Shown here one piece after another: positions 2,958 to 38,415 of a DNA stretch of 64,000 nt. The position numbers were made by a program, and so were the translations under genes. The DNA comes from Blastococcus xanthinilyticus (GTDB taxonomy: Bacteria; Actinomycetota; Actinomycetes; Mycobacteriales; Geodermatophilaceae), in contig NZ_VNHW01000007.1 in the NCBI RefSeq assembly GCF_008124835.1, forward strand, positions 168,172 to 232,171, given 5' to 3'. The notes beneath the pieces are model-generated. The model was not told the origin of the DNA and ran no database searches. It saw nothing but the letters and a program-made list of their open reading frames with translations. The first letter of the stretch is position 1. Each line of letters begins with the position of its first letter.

Positions 2958-5190
2958 CCTCGGCGTGCTCGAGGACGTTCCCGGGGCGGCGCCCGAGCGG
3001 CCCGGGCGACCGGGAGCGGATCCCGGGCTCCGGCCCGGCCGGCTGCGGGCCGAGCGGATTCCCCTGCTGGCGACGGCGGCGCTCGCCGTGGCCGTCCCCG
3101 CGGTCGCCGCCCTCGACCTCGCCGTTCCGGGGCGGGCCCTCCTGGCGCTGGCGTTCGTGCTCACCGTGCCGGGCGTGCCGCTGGTCGCGGGGTTGCGGCT
3201 GCCCGACCCGCTGCTGGCCTGCTCCCTCGCCGGCGCCCTGAGCATCGCGACCGCGCTGCTCACGGCCACCGCCGCCCTGCTCACCGGCACCTGGGACCCG
3301 GTGCGCTGGGCCTGGGCGCTCGCCCTGGTGCACCTGGCGGCCACGGCGTGGGTGCTCCGGCGGGGGCCGCGCACCGCCGGCCCCGGCGCCCGGGCGCCGG
3401 GCCGCCCCGCCGCCCGGGAGCTGCGGATCCGCGCGGTCTGCGCCGCGGCACTGGTCGCGGCCGTCGGCCTCTGGTGGCTGGCCGCCGGCCGGGTCGACCT
3501 CGACGCCGCCGGCGCGAGCGGGCTCATCGGGGTGGTGGGCTGGCCCTACCTCGCCGCGCTGGTCCTGGTCGCGGGCGTCGCGGCCGCCCAACTGGTGCGC
3601 CGCGCGCCGGACGGCGTCGTGCTGGCGGCGGCGGCCCTGGTGCTGGCGCTGGTCCTGTTCGCGTTCGCCAACGTCGCCGACGGCGCGGCGGGTGTGCCCA
3701 CCGGCTGGCGGCACGTCGGCTTCCAGCGGTTCATCAGCGCGAACGAGGCCTCGTTCTACGGCCTCGACGCGCGCGCCAGCTGGCCGGCGTTCTTCGCCGC
3801 CGCCGCGCAGCTGGTGCACCTGGCCGGCGTCGCCGACGCGAGCGCGTTCCTGCAGCTGGCCCCGTTCTTCTACAACGCGGCGGCGCTGGTGCCGCTGCTC
3901 GTCGTCGCCCGGTGCGTCACCGGGTCCGGACGGATCGCCTGGCTGTCGGTCTTCGTCTACCTGGGCGCGAACTGGTACCAGCAGGACTACTTCGCCCCGC
4001 AGGCGACGGCGTTCCTGCTCTACCTGACCGTGCTGGCGACCCTGCTGTGGAGCGCCGCGGCCGCCTGGCGCAGCCGCGCGGCGGACCGGCCCGGCGGTCC
4101 CCGGCCGGAGCGCCGGCGGCTCCGGTCGCTGCTGGCCCCGCTCGGCCGGCGCCCGCCGCTGCCCGCCGGGCTGGACGCCGGACGGTCGGTCGCCCTGGAG
4201 GGCGTGCTCCTCCTGCTCGCAACCGCCGTCGTCGTGACGCACCAGCTCACCCCGGTGACCCTCGTGCTGACCCTGCTGGTCTTCGTCGTCACCGGGTACA
4301 CCCGGTTCCGGCGGCTGTGGCTGGTCGTCGCCCTGCTCTTCGTCGGGTGGTTCAGCTACGGCGCCAGTGACTTCTGGACCGGTCACCTCTCGGCGGTCGT
4401 CGGCGACGTCGGCCAGGTGGGCGCCAACCTCGACCAGGCCGTCACGTCCCGGGTCGTCGGCGATCCGACCTACCAGTTCATGCAGCAGGTGCGGCTGGGG
4501 TGGTCGCTGGTCCACGTCCTGCTCGCCGTGACCGGGCTCGGGCTGATCCTCCGGCGGCCGGACGCCCGGCTGATCGCACTGCTGGCGGCCAGCGCGGGCA
4601 GCCTGGTGCTGCTGCAGAGCTACGGCGGGGAGGTGGTGCTGCGGGTGTTCGTCTTCGCAGCACCCCTGCTGGCCCCGCTCGCGGCGATCGCCCTGCACCG
4701 GCTGCTCACCTGGGCACCGCGGGGCCTGCCGGCCCGCCGGCGGCAGTGGCTCGCCCTCGCCGCCCTGGCCGTCGTCCTCACCGGCTACGGGGCGGCGGGC
4801 ACCGCCACGCGCGGGGTCAACGTCTCGTTCGAACGGGTCAGCGCCGACGACGTGCGGGCCGCCCGCGTGCTGTGGGCGAACCTGCGCGAGGGGGACACCG
4901 TCGGCCTGCTCTACCCGGCCGGCGCCTATCCGGGCGACCGCTACGGCGAGTGGTCGACGGTCTGGCTGCGCGAGGAGCGCTGCGAGCTCCCGCCGGAGGC
5001 GTGCGCGCTGACCCAGCTGCCGCGGTTCGTCCTCCTCGGCCGCACCCAGGACGCCGCCCTCACCCTCGTCGAGGGCAGCGCGCCGGGGGCCTCGCGGGAG
5101 CTGGCCGACGCCCTGCTGCGCAGCGGCCGCTACGAGGTCGTCTACCGGGGCGCCGACGCGCAGCTACTCGTGCTGGACGGGCCCCGATGA
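2950..5190 (+). CDS. Large polytopic membrane protein, possible GT-C-like
   Basis: This 746-residue protein has a soluble N-terminus of about 35 residues followed by roughly fourteen hydrophobic segments. Between them is a conserved-looking aromatic stretch (GANWYQQDYFAPQ) near residue 340, and the last 130 residues are mainly outside the membrane. The layout, many helices with a large C-terminal extracytoplasmic part, resembles GT-C glycosyltransferase-like proteins of actinobacterial surface polysaccharide loci. I do not see a clear catalytic DxD-type motif, so the function is inferred from topology only. It overlaps the next small membrane gene by ATGA and probably shares an operon with the upstream hydrolase. 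Confidence 0.75.
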   Translation: MADLGVLEDVPGAAPERPGRPGADPGLRPGRLRAERIPLLATAALAVAVPAVAALDLAVPGRALLALAFVLTVPGVPLVAGLRLPDPLLACSLAGALSIATALLTATAALLTGTWDPVRWAWALALVHLAATAWVLRRGPRTAGPGARAPGRPAARELRIRAVCAAALVAAVGLWWLAAGRVDLDAAGASGLIGVVGWPYLAALVLVAGVAAAQLVRRAPDGVVLAAAALVLALVLFAFANVADGAAGVPTGWRHVGFQRFISANEASFYGLDARASWPAFFAAAAQLVHLAGVADASAFLQLAPFFYNAAALVPLLVVARCVTGSGRIAWLSVFVYLGANWYQQDYFAPQATAFLLYLTVLATLLWSAAAAWRSRAADRPGGPRPERRRLRSLLAPLGRRPPLPAGLDAGRSVALEGVLLLLATAVVVTHQLTPVTLVLTLLVFVVTGYTRFRRLWLVVALLFVGWFSYGASDFWTGHLSAVVGDVGQVGANLDQAVTSRVVGDPTYQFMQQVRLGWSLVHVLLAVTGLGLILRRPDARLIALLAASAGSLVLLQSYGGEVVLRVFVFAAPLLAPLAAIALHRLLTWAPRGLPARRRQWLALAALAVVLTGYGAAGTATRGVNVSFERVSADDVRAARVLWANLREGDTVGLLYPAGAYPGDRYGEWSTVWLREERCELPPEACALTQLPRFVLLGRTQDAALTLVEGSAPGASRELADALLRSGRYEVVYRGADAQLLVLDGPR

Positions 5191-5471
5191 CCGCCGGGGA
5201 GACCGGGTGGGCGGCCCTGACCGAGCTCGCCGGGCCCCTGGGGCTGGTCCTCCTGGCCGCCGCCGTGCTGGTCGCCGCCGTCCTCGAGGTGCTGGACGAG
5301 CGCGCCGACGCCCGGACGGCGCACGACGCCGCCGTTCCGCGCCGTCACCGGCATGCCGCCCCGCGCTCCCACCGGACCGCCTGGCTCGCGCTCCGCGTCT
5401 CGCTCGTCGTCCTGGTGCTGGCCGCGCTGGCGGCCACGGCCGCCCGCGTGCTCCCCGTCCTCGGCAGCTGA
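5187..5471 (+). CDS. Small two-helix membrane protein
   Basis: This 94-residue protein starts at ATG 5187 inside the stop of the large membrane protein (ATGA overlap). It has one hydrophobic helix at about 15-36, a basic His/Arg-rich linker, and a second helix at about 65-90. No family is recognised. The coupling suggests that it is made together with the large membrane protein, perhaps as an accessory subunit. A frame longer on the left also reads through this gene, but only the ATGA-coupled start fits the operon. Confidence 0.65.
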   Translation: MTAGETGWAALTELAGPLGLVLLAAAVLVAAVLEVLDERADARTAHDAAVPRRHRHAAPRSHRTAWLALRVSLVVLVLAALAATAARVLPVLGS

Positions 5472-5490
5472 GCGCGCCGCCGGGAGCCCG

Positions 5491-5799
5491 CTACGCCGCC
5501 CCGGGCAGCAGGCGCAGGCGCGCCAGCAGGCCGGTGGTCCGGGCCGGCACCGCCTCCGACGGCCGCGGACCGGTACCGCTGCCGGCCGGGCGGACGGCCG
5601 CCCGGGGGGCGGACGGCGGCACGGGCAGCAGGCGGTGGACGTCGGCCGGCCCGTAGGCCGACGCCGGCGCGGCGTGGCGGCCGTATCCCGCCGCTCCCGG
5701 GTCGCGGACGACGATGGTCTCGGCGGCCACCGGGCGCCACGGTGCGGTGACCGGGCCCGTTCCCGGCGGCGGCCCCGAGGGCAGGTGCGAATGCTCCAC
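5491..5799 (-). CDS. Small Pro/Ala-rich hypothetical protein
   Basis: This 102-residue frame starts at GTG 5799, preceded on its strand by AGGAAGG at good spacing, and ends at TAG 5491-5493. The product is rich in Pro, Ala and Arg (PADVHRLLPVPPSAPRAAV), with no helix or known motif. Its codons end mostly in G or C in this frame, as in real genes. It sits alone between a rightward operon and the rightward GGDEF-EAL gene. Function is unknown, and it may be an artefact of high GC. Confidence 0.4.
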   Translation of the reverse strand: MEHSHLPSGPPPGTGPVTAPWRPVAAETIVVRDPGAAGYGRHAAPASAYGPADVHRLLPVPPSAPRAAVRPAGSGTGPRPSEAVPARTTGLLARLRLLPGAA

Positions 5800-5937
5800 G
5801 CCTTCCTCATCGGCGGCCGGGAGGCTCCCCGGCACCGTCCGGCCCCGCCGGTGCCGGCGCCGGCGACCTCCCCCATCGGGGTCATACCGGCCGTGCCGCG
5901 CTGCAGCGCGCCCGCTGCGCGGCCGATCTCCCCTCAC

Positions 5938-8256
5938 GTGGACCAGCCAGACCAGGACGCGGTCACGAGCCGACGCCCCGGCCGTGCTCTGTACCTGACC
6001 GCCGCGCTGGTCGCGCTGTTCGCCACCGGCACCGGCCCGCGTCCGGCCGGCGCGGCGTGGGACCGGGCGTACGACGTCGTCCTCTACAACCTGCCCTACC
6101 TCGCCGCCGCCGCCGTCTGCGTTCTCGCGGCCCGGCGGGTGCGCACGGAACGGATCGCCTGGGTCACGCTCGCCGTCGCCCTGGTGCTCGGCGCGCTCGG
6201 CAACGTGCTGCGCGTGCTCTCCTCCGGCCTGGAGGGCGACGAACCGTCGTCCGCCCTCTCCAACGCGGTCATGATGGTGGCCTACCTGGCCATGTACGTG
6301 CCGGTCGTCGTCCTGATCCGGACCCGGGTGCCGCGGTTCCACCCCAGCATGTGGCTCGACGGCGTGGTGGCCGCGCTCGGCAGCCTGGCCGCCGGCGTCG
6401 CCTTCCTGCTGGGCCCCTACCTGCTCACCATCCCCGGCGAGCGGCCGGTGGCGGCGGTCGACCTCGCGGCCCCGATCACGACCGTCCTGCTCATCGGCGT
6501 GGTCATGGCCGTCGGCGGCATCCTCGGCGTGCGCCTGGACCGCACCTTCGTGCTGCTCGGCGCCGCGCTGAGCCTCATCTGCCTGTCCGACCTCATCCTG
6601 TTCGGCATCAAGGTGCGCGGCACCTACGTCGACGGGGGGCCGCTGGAGCTCGGCTGGCTGATCTCCGTCGTGCTGTGCGCCGCCGCCGCCGAGCACGCGG
6701 TCGAGCCGCCCCAGCGCCTGCGCAGCGGCGGCTCCCGCACCGGCTGGCGGCTGCTCGCCGTGCCCTTCGCCTGCCTGCTCGCCAGCCTCGTCGTGCTCAG
6801 CCCCTGGTCGCAGCCCGTCCCCGACGTCGCCGGCTGGCTGGCCATCGGGTGCGTGCTCGCCGGCGTCCTGCGCATCGCCGTCACCTTCCGCGAGGTCCGC
6901 GGGTACAACCAGGTCAAGCTCGAGTCGCGCACCGACGAGCTCACCGCCCTCCCCAACCGCCGCGCGCTGATCGAGCAGGCCCAGCGCGTCGTCGCCGCGG
7001 CCACCCCCGGGGAACCCGGCGCCCTCCTGCTGCTCGACCTCGACGGGTTCAAGGAGATCAACGACAGCCTCGGCCACTCCGCCGGCGACGACCTGCTGCG
7101 CCAGATCGGCCCGCGGCTGCTCGGCTCCCTGCGCGCCGGCGACGTCCTCGCCCGGCTCGGCGGTGACGAGTTCGCCGTGCTCATGCCGGCCGCGGAGCCG
7201 GCCGAGGCCCGCGTGCTCGCCGAGCGGCTGCGCGAGCGGCTGCTGGCGCCGTTCACGGTGGCCGAGGTGCGGCTGCACGTCGGCGTGAGCATCGGCGTCG
7301 CGACCACGCCGGCGCCGGCCGCGACCGTCGAGGAGCTGCTGCACTGCGCCGACGTCGCCATGTACAGCGCCAAGCGCGCCCGCGAGGGCGTGCACGTCTA
7401 CGTGCCCGACCCCGTCACCGGCACCGCCGGCAGCGACCGGCTGCGCACCATGGAGGAGCTGCGGACCGCCCTGGACGGCGACGAGATCTGCGTCTTCCTG
7501 CAGCCGCAGATGGACCTGCGCGACGGCCGGATCGTGGGCGTCGAGGCCCTGGTCCGGTGGCAGCACCCGACCCGGGGGCTGCTCTCGCCGGCCCACCTGC
7601 TGCCGGCGGCCGAGCAGGCGGGGCTGCTGCGCCCACTGACCGACCGGGTGCTCGACCTCGCGCTCGAGGCCGCCTGCCGCTGGTGGCCCGGCCGCGAGCT
7701 GCCGGTGTCGGTCAACCTGTCGGCGGCCAACGTCACCGACCTCGACCTGGCCGGCAAGGTCGCCGCCACGCTGGACCGGTACGGCCTGCCGGCGCGCGCG
7801 CTCACCCTGGAGCTGGTCGAGGACACCCTCATGGCCGATCCCGAGCGGGGCCGCACGGTGCTCGCCGACCTGCGCCGCTCCGGCGTCCGCACCTCGATCG
7901 ACGACTACGGCACCGGCTACAGCTCGCTGGCCTACCTGCGGCACCTGCCGGCCGACGAGCTCAAGCTGGACCGCAGCCTGACCGCCGACGTCGACCGCGA
8001 CCCCCGGGCCGCGGCGATCGTGCAGAGCACGGTGGCGCTCGCGCACGCGCTGGGCCTGAGCCTGGTCGCCGAAGGGGTCGAGACCCTGGCGACCAGCGCG
8101 ACGCTGGCCCGGCTCGGCTGCGACGTCGCCCAGGGGTACGCCATCGCCCACCCCATGCCGGTCGACGAGTTCCTGCCGTGGCTCGCCGCCTCTGACTCGG
8201 GGCTGGTCGACGTCGCGCTGCTCCCGGAGCTCGGCCGGGGTCCGGCCCAGGACTGA
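5938..8256 (+). CDS. Membrane GGDEF-EAL protein with both active sites intact
   Basis: This protein of 772 residues (GTG 5938) makes or breaks the second messenger c-di-GMP. The first roughly 310 residues form eight or more membrane helices, probably a sensor region. A GGDEF domain follows with an intact GGDEF at about 408-412. The EAL domain has EAL at about 536-538, the Asn of SVNLSA, ELVED, DDYGTGYSS, LKLD and EGVET, so all metal and catalytic positions known in active phosphodiesterases are present. It could be bifunctional or switch between activities. An alternative GTG lies at 5893. It is followed 84-99 bases later by the SpeD-like/acyltransferase pair on the same strand. Confidence 0.9.
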   Translation: MDQPDQDAVTSRRPGRALYLTAALVALFATGTGPRPAGAAWDRAYDVVLYNLPYLAAAAVCVLAARRVRTERIAWVTLAVALVLGALGNVLRVLSSGLEGDEPSSALSNAVMMVAYLAMYVPVVVLIRTRVPRFHPSMWLDGVVAALGSLAAGVAFLLGPYLLTIPGERPVAAVDLAAPITTVLLIGVVMAVGGILGVRLDRTFVLLGAALSLICLSDLILFGIKVRGTYVDGGPLELGWLISVVLCAAAAEHAVEPPQRLRSGGSRTGWRLLAVPFACLLASLVVLSPWSQPVPDVAGWLAIGCVLAGVLRIAVTFREVRGYNQVKLESRTDELTALPNRRALIEQAQRVVAAATPGEPGALLLLDLDGFKEINDSLGHSAGDDLLRQIGPRLLGSLRAGDVLARLGGDEFAVLMPAAEPAEARVLAERLRERLLAPFTVAEVRLHVGVSIGVATTPAPAATVEELLHCADVAMYSAKRAREGVHVYVPDPVTGTAGSDRLRTMEELRTALDGDEICVFLQPQMDLRDGRIVGVEALVRWQHPTRGLLSPAHLLPAAEQAGLLRPLTDRVLDLALEAACRWWPGRELPVSVNLSAANVTDLDLAGKVAATLDRYGLPARALTLELVEDTLMADPERGRTVLADLRRSGVRTSIDDYGTGYSSLAYLRHLPADELKLDRSLTADVDRDPRAAAIVQSTVALAHALGLSLVAEGVETLATSATLARLGCDVAQGYAIAHPMPVDEFLPWLAASDSGLVDVALLPELGRGPAQD

Positions 8257-11578: not shown

Positions 11579-11617
11579 CAGCTGACCCGGCGGCAGCAGC
11601 CGCCGCCGGATCAGCTG
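11579..11617 (-). terminator. Hairpin at the end of the formate dehydrogenase operon
   Basis: A 14-15 bp stem with one mismatch (CAGCTGA-CCGGCGG and its complement) overlaps the stop codon of the NrfD gene. It lies in the convergent gap and could stop transcription from both sides. The rest of the gap from 11346 shows nothing further. Confidence 0.5.
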
Positions 11618-12660
11618 GTCGTCGTCGACGCGAGGTCGGCGGCCTCGCGGGCCGCCAGCCGCTCCCGCTGCGGGATCACGACGTACTTCGGGTCCTTGGT
11701 GCTGGCGATGCCGGCCTCGAAGACGCCGAACCGGGTGAGCAGCGACCCCGCGGCGAGCAACGTCCCTGACGCAATCGCGCCCACCCGGGTGCGCCCGGCG
11801 ACGGCGGTCAGCCCGGCCCCCGCGGCGGTGCACGTGCGGGCCGCGCGCATGAACTTCCCGGGCCGGCCCTCGTGGAACGGCTCGCTGACGATGCCGTGGT
11901 CGTTCTCGACCTTGTGCACCACGGCCAGCTCGATCGCCGCGCCCGCGATCGCCATCTTCCGCGCCGGCCCGGCCTCCTCCACCGGCGTGAACATCATCGT
12001 GATGCCCCCGCCGGCGGCCATCGCCGAGCCACCGAACACGTAGGGCAGCTGCGTGTGCGCCGCGTGCCACGACGGCACCGCGGTGTTGGCCAGCAGCACC
12101 CCGGTGTAGGTGGCCAGCGGCCCGCCGAACACCGCCGCCACCACCCCGCCGAACCGCTTGAGCCGGGGGAACCAGCCCAGCAGCTCCACGGCCGCCGTCG
12201 CCCCGGCCGCCGCGCTGAACGGCGCCAGGATGTAGGAGCCCACCGACAGCGGGGAGGTCACCTTGAACACCCGCAGCATGTGCAGGAACCGCTCCGGGCG
12301 GCCGAGGTCGTGGATCAGGAAGACCACGGACAGGAGCGACCCACCGCCGGCGGTCAGCCGGGAGACCTTGGTCAGCGTCGGCCGGTCGGTGACGTCGGCC
12401 AGCGCGCCGAGGATCGCCGAGGATCCGGCCGCCCCGCCCAGGAACAGGTAGAGCGGCACGTCGGGGCTCTTCCACACCGGCGTCTTGACGATCTGGCGGC
12501 CGTAGTACGACGTGAACTCGACGTCGTCGACCATCGCGACCTCGCCGCGGCCGCGCCATCCGCCGCCGCGGCGCTTCTTCCTGCCGGTGCTGCGCTGCGT
12601 CGCCGGGCCCTGGTCGGCCTGCCGCCACCCCGAGCCGGGGCTGGTGATCCCGCCGGTCAT
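11611..12660 (-). CDS. nrfD: NrfD/PsrC-type membrane anchor subunit of formate dehydrogenase
   Basis: This 349-residue protein has a basic, soluble N-terminus of about 60 residues and then about eight hydrophobic segments typical of the NrfD/PsrC family. Recognisable parts include the LFLGGAAGSSAILGALAD segment and VVFLIHDLGRPERFLHMLRVFK, the loop conserved in NrfD proteins. These subunits pass electrons from an Fe-S partner to menaquinone and lack haem. The gene lies 19 bases after the Fe-S subunit in the order alpha, Fe-S, anchor. It therefore replaces the cytochrome b subunit of FDH-N type enzymes. The ATG at 12660 is the first start in the frame. Confidence 0.9.
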   Translation of the reverse strand: MTGGITSPGSGWRQADQGPATQRSTGRKKRRGGGWRGRGEVAMVDDVEFTSYYGRQIVKTPVWKSPDVPLYLFLGGAAGSSAILGALADVTDRPTLTKVSRLTAGGGSLLSVVFLIHDLGRPERFLHMLRVFKVTSPLSVGSYILAPFSAAAGATAAVELLGWFPRLKRFGGVVAAVFGGPLATYTGVLLANTAVPSWHAAHTQLPYVFGGSAMAAGGGITMMFTPVEEAGPARKMAIAGAAIELAVVHKVENDHGIVSEPFHEGRPGKFMRAARTCTAAGAGLTAVAGRTRVGAIASGTLLAAGSLLTRFGVFEAGIASTKDPKYVVIPQRERLAAREAADLASTTTS

Positions 12661-12679: not shown

Positions 12680-13741
12680 TCATCGCTGCCGCGAGCCGAG
12701 GATCGCCGTGACGGCGACCGCGACCATCATCGCCGCGGCCTTTCCGGCCGCCTTCCACATCGCCGGCAGGTCCCGCGTCGTCACGATCGGGTCCGGCGGC
12801 AGGCCGTAGACCTCCGGCTCGTCGAGCAGCAGGAAGAACGCGCCGTCACCGCCGACGCCGTCGTTCTCGTCCCGCCCGTAGAGCCGCGCGGTCTCCACGC
12901 CCTGCTCCTTGAGCGTGGCCAGCCGCGCGTCCGCCCGGGCCTGCAGCTCGTCGAGGTCACCGAACTGGATCGACTGCGTCGGGCAGGCGGTGGCGCACGC
13001 CGGCTGCAACCCGTCGGTCAGCCGGTCGTAGCACATCGTGCACTTGAAGACCCGGCCGTCGTCCTTGCGCTGGTCGATGACGCCGTAGGGGCAGGCCGCC
13101 ACGCAGTAGCCGCAGCCGTTGCAGATGTCGCCCTGGACGACCACGGTGCCGTACTCGGTGCGGAACAGCGCCCCGGTCGGGCAGACGTCGAGGCAGCCGG
13201 CGTGCGTGCAGTGCTTGCACACGTCGGAGCTCATCAGCCAGCGGACCTGCTTGTCCGCGCCGCTCTGCCCGGTCTGCGGGTCGAACTCGCTCAGCGCCTC
13301 GGCGTTGAGCACGCTGGCCTGGGCCTTGGCGGTGCTGTCGTGGTCGCCGGAGCCGGCGACCGACGGACCGTGGTCGTGCCGGTCGTCGCCGGGCCGGCCG
13401 AAGGTGGGCATCGGCAGGTCGACGGCGCGGCTCTGCTCGATGAAGGCCACGTGCCGCCAGGAGTTCGCCCCCAGCTGACCGGTGTTGTCGTAGGACATCC
13501 CGGACATGCCGATGACGTCCTTGGTGCCGTGCGAGTCGTCCATCGGGAGCGTGTTCCACTCCTTGCAGGCCACCTCACAGGCCTTGCAGCCGATGCACAC
13601 CGAGGTGTCGGTGAAGAAGCCGACCCGCTTGGGGTGGTCGTCGTCGTACCCGGACTGACCGGTGACGTCGGGCACCGGGCCGTAGAGCCGGTTGCCGGGG
13701 TCGTTCCCGGTGAAGGCCGCGCTCGCCGAGCTGATCGTCAT
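12680..13741 (-). CDS. Formate dehydrogenase iron-sulfur (beta) subunit
   Basis: This 353-residue protein carries four [4Fe-4S] binding groups. The first is CIGCKACEVAC from residue 49; later groups are CKHCTHAGCLDVC, CNGCGYCVAAC and the CTMC/ACATAC pairing. Their order matches FdnH/FdoH-type subunits that move electrons from the catalytic subunit towards the membrane. A hydrophobic helix near the C-terminus (KAAAMMVAVAVTAIL) is the usual single anchor. An insertion of about 95 residues after the first cluster is longer than in E. coli FdnH. The ATG at 13741 follows GGGAGGGAG at good spacing. It lies 127 bases downstream of the alpha subunit, with a hairpin in the gap. Confidence 0.92.
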   Translation of the reverse strand: MTISSASAAFTGNDPGNRLYGPVPDVTGQSGYDDDHPKRVGFFTDTSVCIGCKACEVACKEWNTLPMDDSHGTKDVIGMSGMSYDNTGQLGANSWRHVAFIEQSRAVDLPMPTFGRPGDDRHDHGPSVAGSGDHDSTAKAQASVLNAEALSEFDPQTGQSGADKQVRWLMSSDVCKHCTHAGCLDVCPTGALFRTEYGTVVVQGDICNGCGYCVAACPYGVIDQRKDDGRVFKCTMCYDRLTDGLQPACATACPTQSIQFGDLDELQARADARLATLKEQGVETARLYGRDENDGVGGDGAFFLLLDEPEVYGLPPDPIVTTRDLPAMWKAAGKAAAMMVAVAVTAILGSRQR

Positions 13742-13868: not shown

Positions 13869-16800
13869 TCACAGGCTGGACCCCTCGCCCGCGTCGGCGG
13901 CCACCGGGTCGCGCCCGTTGACCCCGACCCGGCCGGACGCCACGCCGGCCCGCCGGCGGTAGTCCTCGACGAACTCCAGCAGGGCGGGGCCGCGCGGGCG
14001 CCGCCCCGGGACGATGTCCGCGGTGCTGACCTTGTCCTCCTGGATGTGCGTGTTCGGGTCGAGCACGATGCCCAGCAGGTCGTTCGCGGAGTCGCCGGTG
14101 GAGATGCCGCTGTAGGACCAGTGGTACGGCATGCCGATCTGGTGCACGACCTGCCCGTCGCGCAGCTTGATCGGCCGCACCCGCTCGGTCACCAGCACCT
14201 TGGCCTCGATCGCGGTGCGGGCGCTGACCAGCGTGGCGTAGTCGCCGTGGGTCAGCCCGCGCAGCGCCGCGAGCTCGGGGCTGACCTCCACGAAGAACTC
14301 CGGCTGGAGCTCGGCGAGGTAGGGCAGCGTGCGGCTCATCGCGCCGGCCGTGTGGTGCTCGGTCAGCCGGTAGGTGGTCACCTGGAACGGGAAGACCTCG
14401 CTGCGCGACGGGTTCTCCCGGTTCCACGGGCCGTCGATCCGCTCGACGGTCGGGTTCGCCTGCTGCTTGTAGAGGGCGTTCTCGACCACCGACTCGACCG
14501 GCTCGTAGTGCGTCGGCAGCGGGCCGTCGACCACCCCGGACGGCGCGTACAGCCACGCCTTTCCGTCACCCTGCATGACGAACGGGTCGGTGCCCGACAG
14601 CGCGTCCTGCGCCTTGGCGCCGTGGGCCGGCACGTAGTCCGGCCGCTTGTTCTTCTCGAAGTCGGGGACGTCGGCGCCGGTCCACTCGCCGGCGGCCTCG
14701 TCCCAGTACACGTACTTCTTCCGCTCGCTCCACGGCTTGCCCGCGGGGTCGGCCGAGGCGCGGTTGTAGAGCATCCGGCGGTTCAGCGGCCAGGCCCAGC
14801 CCCACTCGGAGGCCACCGCGCCCTGCTCGCTCGCCGGCTTGCGCCGCGCGGCCTGGTTCACCTCGTCGGCGTAGACGCCGGTGTAGATCCAGCAGCCACC
14901 GCTGGTGGAGCCGTCGTCCTTCATCTGCATGTAGGACGACAGCGCCTTGCCGTCGGGGCCGACGCCGTTGATCTCCCGCAGCACCGCCTCGGCGCTGGGG
15001 TCCTGGGTCTCGCCGTGGGTCGGGTAGTCCCAGGTGAGGTCCAGCAGCGGGCGGTCACGCGGGTCGTCGGAGTCCGCCAGCCGTTCCCGGAGGATCCGGC
15101 CGAGGTGGTAGAAGAACCACAGGTCGCTGCGCGCGTCGTTCGGCGGCTCCACCGCCTTGTCCCGCCACTGCAGCAGCCGCTGGGTCTGGGTGAAGGTGCC
15201 TTCCTTCTCCACGTGCGTGGCCGCCGGCATGAAGAAGACCTCGGTGGCGATCGTCTCCGGGGCCAGCTCCCCGGTCTCGATCTCCGGCGACTGGTTCCAG
15301 AACGTCGCCGACTCGATCATCTGCAGGTCGCGGACGACCAGCCAGTCGAGGTTGGCCAGGCCGAACCGGTTCATCCGGCCGTTCGGGTGCCCGACGACCG
15401 GGTTCTCCCCCACCAGGAAGTAGCCGGAGACCTTGCCCTCGATCATGTCCGCGATCGTCCGGTAGGAGCTGTGGTCGCCGTTGATCCGCGGCAGGTAGCC
15501 GAAGGCGAAGTCGTTCTCCGCCGTCGCCGCGTCACCCCACCAGGCCTTGAGCAGGCTGGTCATGTACGCCCGCTTGTTGCCCCAGAACCCGGCCTTGCCG
15601 GCGGCGTCGGCGACGTACTCCTCGAGCGAGTCGTGCTGCAGCGCGTGCGGCATCGGCAGATAGCCCGGGAGGATGTTGAACAGCGTCGGGATGTCGGTGG
15701 AGCCCTGGATGCTGGCGTGCCCGCGCAGCGCCATGATCCCGCCGCCGGGGCGGCCGATGTTGCCCAGCAGCGTCTGCAGGATCGAGCAGGTGCGGATGTA
15801 CTGCGCGCCGACGCTGTGCTGCGTCCAGCCCACCGAGTACACCCACGCCGTCGTCCGGTCGCGGTTGCTGTTGCTCGTCACCCACTCGGCGACCTGGGCG
15901 AACACCTCCGGCTCGATGCCGCAGACCTCGGACACCATCTCCGGGGTGTACCGGGCGTAGTGCCGCTTGAGGATCTGGAAGACCGAGCGCGGGTGCTGCA
16001 GCGTCTCGTCGCGCTTGGGCTTGCCGGGGATCGGCGGGCCGCCGCTGCCGGCCGCCTGGGCCTGGTCGGACGCCCGGACGGCGGGCTGGTCGTCGAGCTG
16101 CTCCTGCTGCGCCGCCTCGGCCGGGTTCTCGGCGTCGGACTGCGCCGGCTCCTCGGTCTCGTACTGCCAGCTGTCCTCGTCGTAGACCCGGCTCTCCGGG
16201 TCGAAGCCGGAGAACAGGCCGTCGGCGTCCTCGGAGTCGATGAAGTCCTGGCTGACGATCGCCGCGGCGTTGGTGTAGGCGACCACGTACTCCTCGAAGT
16301 ACAGGTCGTTGCTCAGCACGTGGTTGATCAGGCCGCCGAGGAACGCGATGTCCGTGCCGATCCGCAGCGGGACGTGCAGGTCGGCGATCGCGCTGGTGCG
16401 GGTGAAGCGCGGGTCGATGTGGATGATCTTCGCGCCGCGCGCCTTGGCCTCACCGACCCACTGGAAGCCCACCGGGTGGCACTCGGCCATGTTCGAGCCC
16501 TCGATGACGATGCAGTCGGCGTTCGAGAGGTCTTCCAGGAAGTTCGTGGCGCCACCACGACCGAACGAGGCACCCAGACCGGGCACCGTCGCGGAGTGCT
16601 ATATGCGCGCCTGGTTCTCGATCTGGATCGCGCCCATGGCGCTGTAGAGCTTCTTCATGAGGTAGTTCTCCTCGTTGTCGAGGGTCGCCCCTCCGAGGCT
16701 CGCTATCCCCATGGTGCGGCCGAGGTGCCGGCCGTCCTCGTCGCTGTCCTGCCAGCCCTTGCGGCGGGCCTCCAGGACGCGGTCGGCGATCATCTCCATC

Positions 16801-17171
16801 GCCGTGTCGAGCTCGAGGTCCTCCCACTCCGTCCCGTAGGGGCGGCGGTACTTGACCGTGGTGACCCGGCTCGGGCTGGTGACCAGCTGCTTGCTGGCCG
16901 AGCCCTTCGGGCAGAGCCGGCCGCGGCTGATCGGCGAGTTCGGGTCGCCCTCGATCTGGACGACCTTCTCGTCCTTCACGTAGACGTTCTGCGCGCAGCC
17001 GACGGCGCAGTACGGGCAGACGCTCTTGACGACGCGGTCGGCGGTCGCGGTGCGCGCCACCGTCGCCTCGGTCGCCTTGCTGCGCGCGGCCGAGCCGCGC
17101 CCGAACGGGTCCGAACCGGTGAGCTGCCGGTACACCGGCCAGCTCTCGAGCCAGGTCTTCACCTGCGTCAC
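13869..17171 (-). CDS. Formate dehydrogenase alpha subunit, selenocysteine encoded by UAG
   Basis: This is a molybdopterin/tungstopterin formate dehydrogenase of 1100 residues if the in-frame TAG at 16599-16601 is read through. The first part carries the [4Fe-4S] site CPYCAVGC...CPKG (Cys52, 55, 59, 87). ENQARI-TAG-HSATVPGL exactly matches the family pattern in which Cys or Sec precedes HSSTV, so the TAG is residue 191. The remaining 909 residues continue the family without a break (GRGGATNF, EGSNMAECHPVGF, and a C-terminal MopB domain). A Gln/Glu/Pro-rich insert lies in the first half. No twin-arginine signal is seen. Frame-shift or decay is unlikely because both halves are intact and in one frame. 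Confidence 0.93.
16569..16587 (-). promoter_or_regulatory. SECIS-like hairpin for selenocysteine insertion
   Basis: On the mRNA a 7-bp stem (GGUGCCC with GGGUGCC, two G-U pairs) closes a GGUCU loop. The loop begins 18 bases after the UAG codon. The E. coli fdhF SECIS has the same GGUCU apical loop at the same 18-base distance after its UGA. The bulged U of the E. coli stem is not present. The element is inside the coding sequence, as in other bacteria, and would recruit SelB. Confidence 0.8.
16599..16601 (-). other. UAG codon read as selenocysteine
   Basis: The codon sits at the active-site metal-ligand position of the alpha subunit (residue 191), where the family has only Cys or Sec. UGA is the standard Sec codon; UAG use is published for Geodermatophilus and Blastococcus. 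Confidence 0.88.
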
Positions 17172-38072: not shown

Positions 38073-38327
38073 GGGTGGTTCTCCTGCGTTCGGAGGGAGA
38101 CCGACCGGCCGACCGGTGGGGAGCCACCGGAGGCCCTCACGGGCGGTCGCCGGGGACGTTAGGTGAGCCCCGCATCGTTGTCTACAAGTCGACACCAGCC
38201 GGTCACGGAACGAACCCGGCTCCGGGTCGGGAACTCCTGCGGTTACCTGGATGTTTACCCGTGCGAAACGATGCCGGTCGGTATGTCGAAGAGTTCCTGT
38301 CGTCCCACTGTGTGAGATGGAGCACTG

Positions 38328-38415
38328 CGGAGGGCGTGGGATTCGAACCCACGAAGAGGGGTCACCTCTTAGCGGTTTTCAAGACCGCCGCACTAGGCCG
38401 CTATGCGAGCCCTCC
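38328..38415 (-). tRNA. tRNA-Ser (anticodon UGA)
   Basis: The folded molecule has a 7-bp acceptor stem (GGAGGGC with GCCCTCC) and discriminator G. The anticodon arm reads GCGGT-CTTGAAA-ACCGC with anticodon TGA. It has the long variable arm of class II tRNAs and a T arm with GTTCGAA. CCA is not encoded. It is an ordinary serine tRNA for UCA codons, not tRNA-Sec, which would be longer and, in this lineage, need a CUA anticodon. Confidence 0.95.

Follow-up and report, generated by a model that had tools for sequence, protein, structure and literature searches.

Mukai and colleagues reportedly confirmed UAG-encoded selenocysteine (Sec) by 75Se labelling in 2016. Their work is the one cited for UAG-Sec in Geodermatophilaceae by Santesmasses and colleagues (2017, PMC5330540), who describe three tRNA-Sec with a CUA anticodon, all from this family, and UAG in genes for formate dehydrogenase (FDH), UGSC proteins and one AhpC; for B. 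saxobsidens, an AhpC selenoprotein with UAG is given. Recoding to Sec extends in some species to other stop codons and to ten sense codons (PMC10778597), and the Sec machinery of E. coli can be redirected to UAG (PMC3834832). UAG-Sec in Geodermatophilaceae is thus already published, as the sequence-only reading of the present locus had stated and as PMC5330540 confirms in print, and the fdhA gene analysed here is not different in kind. It lies in the window, the stretch of 64,000 nucleotides that was analysed, which corresponds to C7:168172-232171 of the Blastococcus xanthinilyticus assembly (4.6 Mb, 38 contigs).

The fdhA gene and its in-frame TAG

The first ORF of fdhA (17171..16599, minus strand) begins with GTG and encodes 190 aa up to the TAG, past which 909 more codons follow in frame until a TGA terminator at 13871-13869 (Table 1); the ORF reading thus reproduced the lengths that the sequence-only reading had given for the two sides. 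Reading TAG as U gives a protein of 1100 aa with U191 in the context ARI-U-HSATV, and this is the sole fdhA codon that departs from table 11. Over the read-through FdhA, the NCBIfam profile NF041513 ('formate_DH_Act') scored 1920.9 bits against a cut-off of 1400 and TIGR01553 scored 952.9 bits against 814.2; the domains Molybdopterin, Molybdop_Fe4S4 and Molydop_binding were found. Taken separately, the two halves align to neighbouring parts of NF041513, the first with residues 7-190 on profile positions 2-185, the second, a 905-aa ORF, with residues 2-879 on positions 192-1067.

When FdhA was aligned to 1h0h (formate dehydrogenase subunit alpha), the query letters 'aric' stood opposite 'ARIX' in 'ARIXHSATV', and entries close to 1h0h in the same match list are titled 'selenocysteine-containing'. 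We take the X of 1h0h to be Sec and the enzyme to be from Desulfovibrio. The earlier claim that the alpha subunit is interrupted by an in-frame TAG at its Cys/Sec position was borne out accordingly, the TAG on the minus strand facing this presumed Sec. In fdhA homologues elsewhere, the active-site codon is TGA in Tsukamurella and a Cys codon in Nonomuraea.

Read codon by codon, the Sec site is TAG in all 70 FdhA copies (our own and 69 relatives, from nine genera), and it is hence not a local error. Among FdhA matches with 73% identity or more, each one that spans the Sec codon has one TAG; three others in this range, two from G079 and one from G033, miss the site. Several synonymous sites near the TAG are constrained among the family copies. 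In the relative G079, both fdhA copies (L191, G079:C12; L192, G079:C4) are without the Sec codon and the hairpin stretch and have their frame shifted there. The 3' edges of these two breaks are identical and the 5' edges differ, which may represent genuine loss or assembly dropout.

The codon before the TAG is ATA, which makes up just 1.6% of 245 nearby Ile codons, yet precedes TAG in every one of the 70 copies. Among the UGA homologues, from six plasmid homologues fetched with Chelatococcus left out (no match to the motif used), Tsukamurella and Thermomicrobium have ATA before TGA, Arthrobacter has ATT and Indioceanicola GTC; GTC also precedes the Sec codon in E. coli fdhF, fdnG and fdoG. A tie between ATA and UAG decoding was considered and dropped, since two of these UGA homologues have ATA as well, and for the same reason the ATA codon predates the codon switch described below.

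Two further genes on the same strand are closely spaced with fdhA. For the iron-sulphur subunit, the best NCBIfam match was the FDH-beta profile TIGR01582 at 180.5 bits, under its cut-off of 334.7; for the NrfD-like membrane subunit, the NCBIfam profile search gave no match.

Table 1. Coordinates of the features discussed. Positions are those of the window unless a contig or stretch is named; hairpin positions are numbered from the T of TAG.
Feature	Position	Strand	Remarks
fdhA, formate dehydrogenase alpha subunit	13869..17171	minus	1100 aa with TAG read as Sec
TAG, predicted Sec codon, residue 191 of the fdhA product	16599..16601	minus	aligned with X of 1h0h
Invariant ATA (Ile) codon immediately 5' of TAG	16602..16604	minus	70/70 copies
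Putative hairpin, 5' arm, positions 15-21	16581..16587	minus	family alignment
Putative hairpin, apical loop GGUCU, positions 22-26	16576..16580	minus	letters and positions as in E. coli fdhF
Putative hairpin, 3' arm, positions 27-33	16569..16575	minus	compensatory changes in 3/7 pairs
fdhB-like iron-sulphur subunit, next operon gene	12680..13741	minus	353 aa; TIGR01582, Fer4_11
NrfD/polysulphide-reductase-like membrane subunit, third operon gene	11611..12660	minus	349 aa; PF14589 and PF03916 above cut-off
Geodermatophilus G058, second tRNA-Sec (UCA)	C17:1173-1263 (L179)	minus	81.8 bits
Geodermatophilus G058, AhpD-like ORF with TGA at second Cys of CxxC (CxxU)	C17:1579-2157 (L179)	plus	315 bases from UCA tRNA
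'Coriobacteriia' MAG stretch L139, grdA and selA-selB-selC(CUA)	2319-2795, 4293-7612, 7597-7689		selA 614.6, selB 379.5, tRNA-Sec 64.2 bits

Decoding machinery, hairpin and further UAG codons

The sequence-only reading had placed the recoding genes outside the window and called for a search of the whole genome. All four were found together, selB, selA, tRNA-Sec and selD being clustered within ~5 kb on contig C6, with scores above the NCBI cut-offs for selA (413.2 bits), selB (277.6) and selD (387.2). The tRNA-Sec scored 64.2 bits against RF01852 (cut-off 47). Its anticodon is CTA in the DNA (CUA), its acceptor stem is followed by GCCA in the DNA (G and an encoded CCA), and it is the sole Rfam match above the gathering score in its 10-kb stretch; it did not qualify as a Pyl-type tRNA. 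SelD has Cys in its N-terminal GGGCACK motif, with no stop codon there. A second Rfam tRNA-Sec match above the cut-off (51.5 vs 47 bits) at 38329-38415 of the window was rejected, as ARAGORN identifies it as tRNA-Ser(UGA), at 38327-38415; tRNA-Ser(UGA) exceeding the Rfam tRNA-Sec cut-off is a false positive to watch for.

The TAG is followed by a putative SECIS-like hairpin of seven pairs. The covariation set comprised 32 distinct sequences out of the 70 fdhA copies, giving 224 cells for the seven pairs, and 99.1% of these cells are paired; G23, U24, C25 and U26 of the loop are invariant in 32/32 sequences. Double-sided changes occur at the pairs 15-33, 18-30 and 21-27. Cells changed on both sides numbered 21 against a shuffled mean of 6.9, reached by none of 500 shuffles, in a test that is weakened by kinship among the sequences. 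The less extreme two of the five shuffle measures were the number of pairs with a both-sided change (3, mean 1.9; reached by 15/500) and further pair types (reached by 10/500). Pairing dropped to 31-57% once the register was shifted by one, two or three columns, in a test which preserves kinship yet favours a structure derived from these same sequences. Single-sequence folding of the fdhA hairpin was not better than that of many shuffles (z -0.98 and -1.18). Support for the predicted hairpin is comparative, then, and does not come from single-sequence folding. We presume that SelB contacts its loop. Recognition of SECIS by the winged-helix domains of SelB has been described (PMC8124441).

Two genes of the UGSC family (NF041046) likewise have one TAG each, at C3:106144-106569 (133.4 bits, cut-off 125) and at C1:590250-590657 (105.2 bits, under this cut-off). 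In both, TAG is the U of U-G-S-C and precedes an eight-pair hairpin in which positions 22-26 read AGUGU or AGUCU. Together with fdhA, these probably bring the UAG selenoprotein genes of the genome to three or more; the number is a lower bound because the read-through scan missed the second UGSC gene (L305) and the loop pattern is blind to both UGSC genes. That pattern, a GGUCUG loop with its spacing (CAGACC N13-23 CTA, opposite strand), gave 87 matches in the genome vs 217 in the reversed control, i.e. no enrichment, with 52 of the 87 read, the window's own included. The read-through scan, which covered the own-genome loci fetched, gave five hits. One was fdhA and one the UGSC gene L301; L008 and L261 both showed the gap between EF-G and EF-Tu, and the fifth was at L011. 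The EF-G/EF-Tu gap was rejected as a UAG-Sec gene, the TAG being a normal stop, and the TAG of L011, followed by an in-frame ATG, was taken for a putative gene boundary. In the relative G087 (g9), two UGSC-family genes have a Cys codon (CGSC) and one has TAG (L296, L304, L307).

The genes for EF-G (699 aa, TIGR00484 1121.4 bits) and SelB both terminate in TAG. UAG is therefore still an ordinary stop, and recoding should be local and site-specific. Among 41 ORFs in the window, chosen by a simple composition script and not by a gene caller, 34 end in TGA, six in TAG (the fdhA site among them) and one in TAA.

In the mechanism that we propose, SerRS would charge tRNA-Sec(CUA) with serine, which SelA, using selenophosphate made by SelD, would convert to Sec-tRNA. 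SelB would bring the Sec-tRNA to the ribosome and bind the hairpin, which begins 14 bases past the first base of the UAG. At the fdhA UAG, the Sec-tRNA would outcompete release factor 1; UAG elsewhere, in positions without the hairpin, would still terminate. The resulting protein would serve as catalytic subunit in a formate dehydrogenase that also contains the iron-sulphur and NrfD-like membrane subunits.

Codon and anticodon in the family and beyond

A tRNA-Sec is present in 108 of 112 Geodermatophilaceae genomes; G067, G071, G097 and G098, each less than 83% complete, gave no match. The CUA tRNA-Sec pattern was found in 101 of the 112. Anticodons were read at 31 loci as 23 CTA and 8 TCA, the latter representing seven genomes of g5, g6 and g7, which have UCA only, and one extra copy in G058. 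Sec codons read directly were 70 TAG and 3 TGA (from g7; one TGA without context), and codon and anticodon match family-wide. The four FdhA matches of g7, each with one TGA, show 36-38% identity and hence represent a more distant FdhA, not the same gene. Additional FdhA matches at 33-38% identity are listed without stops, and the FdhA search gave no match in g5 and g6.

The own CUA tRNA-Sec is identical to the UCA tRNA-Sec of G072 (g7) at 85 of 92 bases. All four UCA tRNAs of g5-g7 that were compared differ from it at positions 33, 36, 37 and 41, of which two belong to the anticodon and two form the closing pair of the anticodon loop. Identity of Dxs to that of G058 is 67-69% in g5, 70-73% in g7 and 79-92% in the CUA genera, no match from g6 having been obtained in this comparison. 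Because CUA is so prevalent in the family and UCA is found in seven genomes of three more distant genera, one of them with a UGA fdhA, the codon switch appears to have occurred inside the Geodermatophilaceae, and one switch within the family is the simplest reading of these sequences. As codon and anticodon each differ by two bases, an intermediate, UAA or UGG, would be expected. Duplicate tRNAs were also seen: Blastococcus endophyticus NZ_JABGCI010000003.1 has two CUA tRNA-Sec ~59 kb apart (L133 2092-2183 and L148 5048-5139), and the MAGs RYN_169 and RYN_126 have two apiece.

Geodermatophilus G058 has its native CUA tRNA-Sec on contig C11, one selA match, and an fdhA and a UGSC gene, both with TAG. 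Its contig C17 carries the second, UCA-type tRNA-Sec and the AhpD-like ORF of Table 1. Aligned over 95 columns, the two tRNA-Sec agree in only 67, hence the UCA tRNA is no duplicate of the native one. The TGA site of the AhpD-like ORF is Cys in 29/29 relatives that were fetched and aligned, and the TGA is followed by a seven-pair hairpin, two bases closer than in fdhA. Transposase and integrase domains flank the cassette on either side, and the G+C content of C17 is 0.62-0.72 in the first 15 kb and 0.71-0.79 beyond, with 0.62 in the last short bin. Plain contamination is unlikely because C17 also holds the only dxs match of G058; this Dxs is closest to Blastococcus genomes (91-92%), vs up to 90% for other g3. 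In the search for a cassette donor with AhpD, viral contigs contained no relative, and the 333 plasmid records returned all stayed below 60% identity; the downstream half of the AhpD-like ORF alone matched no Pfam family. By its sequence, G058 is a candidate for two Sec codons, UAG and UGA, in one cell. The cassette could be a relic, or else the TGA, which is followed by an ATG, could separate two ORFs.

In the collection of genome contigs, the CUA tRNA-Sec pattern occurred in 98 stretches (L051-L148), and since the pattern is strict, other CUA tRNA-Sec can be missed. By their letters, 89 of the 98 have a core of the Geodermatophilaceae type (three labelled Bacillus sp. AZ43, Jatrophihabitans and Frankiales). 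For seven (L070, L072, L085, L115, L118, L130, L135) the match was to general tRNA instead of tRNA-Sec, and one (L090) gave no tRNA match, the Rfam scan having covered 18 of the 98 stretches. The seven CUA tRNAs of general type, from MAGs of several phyla, are possible amber suppressors. Viral contigs yielded 41 pattern stretches, of which 15 were scanned and none was a tRNA-Sec.

The tRNA-Sec of the last of the 98 stretches, L139 (G+C 0.35), on a single MAG contig for which 'Coriobacteriia' is the depositor's class label, is unlike the Geodermatophilaceae type. Here selA, selB, tRNA-Sec(CUA) and a TusA-like gene are consecutive, with grdA upstream, and the selB ORF overlaps the tRNA by 16 bases. 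The grdA gene (NF040748, 274.5 bits) has TAG at the Sec site, in CFV-U-TSAGAMDLENQ, a position at which GrdA, as we assume, carries Sec; a hairpin after this TAG is weak and not significant. With tRNA, machinery and codon concordant within 8 kb, the sequence marks L139 as a candidate for a second origin of UAG-Sec, outside Geodermatophilaceae.

Reading these cases jointly, we lean slightly towards the following history. Geodermatophilaceae would have gone from UGA/UCA to UAG/CUA after splitting from the three genera; Geodermatophilus G058 would have taken up a mobile cassette with a UCA tRNA-Sec and a UGA-Sec AhpD-like gene, and would use UAG and UGA with one selA; and the Coriobacteriia MAG would have switched independently, with grdA as a UAG selenoprotein. 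The Sec codon would then be unfixed even within a family or a cell. In the literature searched, which left most subscription journals and bioRxiv outside, no paper was found that describes a wild bacterium with two Sec codons or UAG-Sec in Coriobacteriia, nor was one that gives the family-wide anticodon picture.

Alternative explanations and known systems

We hold with great confidence that the sequence identifies fdhA as a selenoprotein gene with UAG codon 191 read as Sec. Were the TAG a sequencing error or a fresh nonsense mutation and fdhA a pseudogene, a single genome with one interrupting stop would present the same picture, and G079 does have two copies broken at the Sec site. This is refuted by the TAG in 70/70 copies of nine genera; the one TAG in all covering matches of at least 73% identity, the constrained synonymous sites around it, and the presence of tRNA-Sec, selA, selB and selD also speak against it, and its probability is close to nil. 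Should the UAG be read as pyrrolysine or via another amber suppressor, one might point to ARAGORN, which calls the tRNA 'tRNA-Pyl', as it does other CUA tRNAs. In a 2013 study of pyrrolysine, Geodermatophilus obscurus stands among the Infernal tRNA hits, with the footnote 'No UAG-anticodon', and was not kept (PMC3639795). The present tRNA, however, scores as tRNA-Sec and lies within the selA-selB-selD cluster. Moreover, it shares most of its bases with the UCA tRNA-Sec of g7, and the site is occupied by the presumed Sec in 1h0h and by UGA in Tsukamurella, which makes decoding as pyrrolysine or by another amber suppressor very improbable.

Translation might instead stop at the UAG, yielding a 190-aa protein with the FeS domain and a separate 905-aa protein from the in-frame GTG at 16586, 12 bases past the TAG; UAG is, after all, a stop elsewhere in the genome. 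One FDH profile would then be cut at the catalytic residue, however, and neither the covariation of the hairpin nor a tRNA-Sec with the matching CUA anticodon would be accounted for. We see scarcely any chance that two separate proteins are what the locus is for, and it is likely that some termination occurs alongside read-through at this codon. If UAG is read as Sec, as we prefer, automated annotation is apt to split fdhA or to call it a pseudogene, and to overlook the two other putative selenoproteins. The family moreover provides a before-and-after record of a codon switch, in which gene, hairpin and tRNA are the same and two codon and two anticodon bases are swapped. If the G058 and Coriobacteriia cases are true, a Sec codon can be acquired horizontally and can change repeatedly, and the route of the switch, presumably via UAA or UGG, would become testable.

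Among known systems, pyrrolysine decoding shares with the present one the UAG and the CUA anticodon, and differs in tRNA type, in the flanking sel genes and in the active-site position found here. E. coli fdhF, fdnG and fdoG likewise have the codon at the Sec site of the enzyme family, with GGUCU (fdhF) or AGUCU (fdnG, fdoG) at positions 22-26. Their codon is UGA, however, preceded by GTC (Val), and of the seven stem pairs fdhF forms none and fdnG and fdoG form five. FdhA of Tsukamurella tyrosinosolvens, on plasmid 17 (NZ_LR134459.1), is closer, with 79.7% identity over the Sec region and the same ATA, seven-pair hairpin and loop, but with TGA in place of TAG, presumably the ancestral state of the same gene. 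The published Geodermatophilaceae have the same CUA tRNA-Sec and UAG at the Sec sites of FDH and UGSC proteins; whereas that set consisted of three CUA tRNAs, the present one extends to 101 of 112 genomes, with UCA in distant genera and a hairpin tested by covariation.
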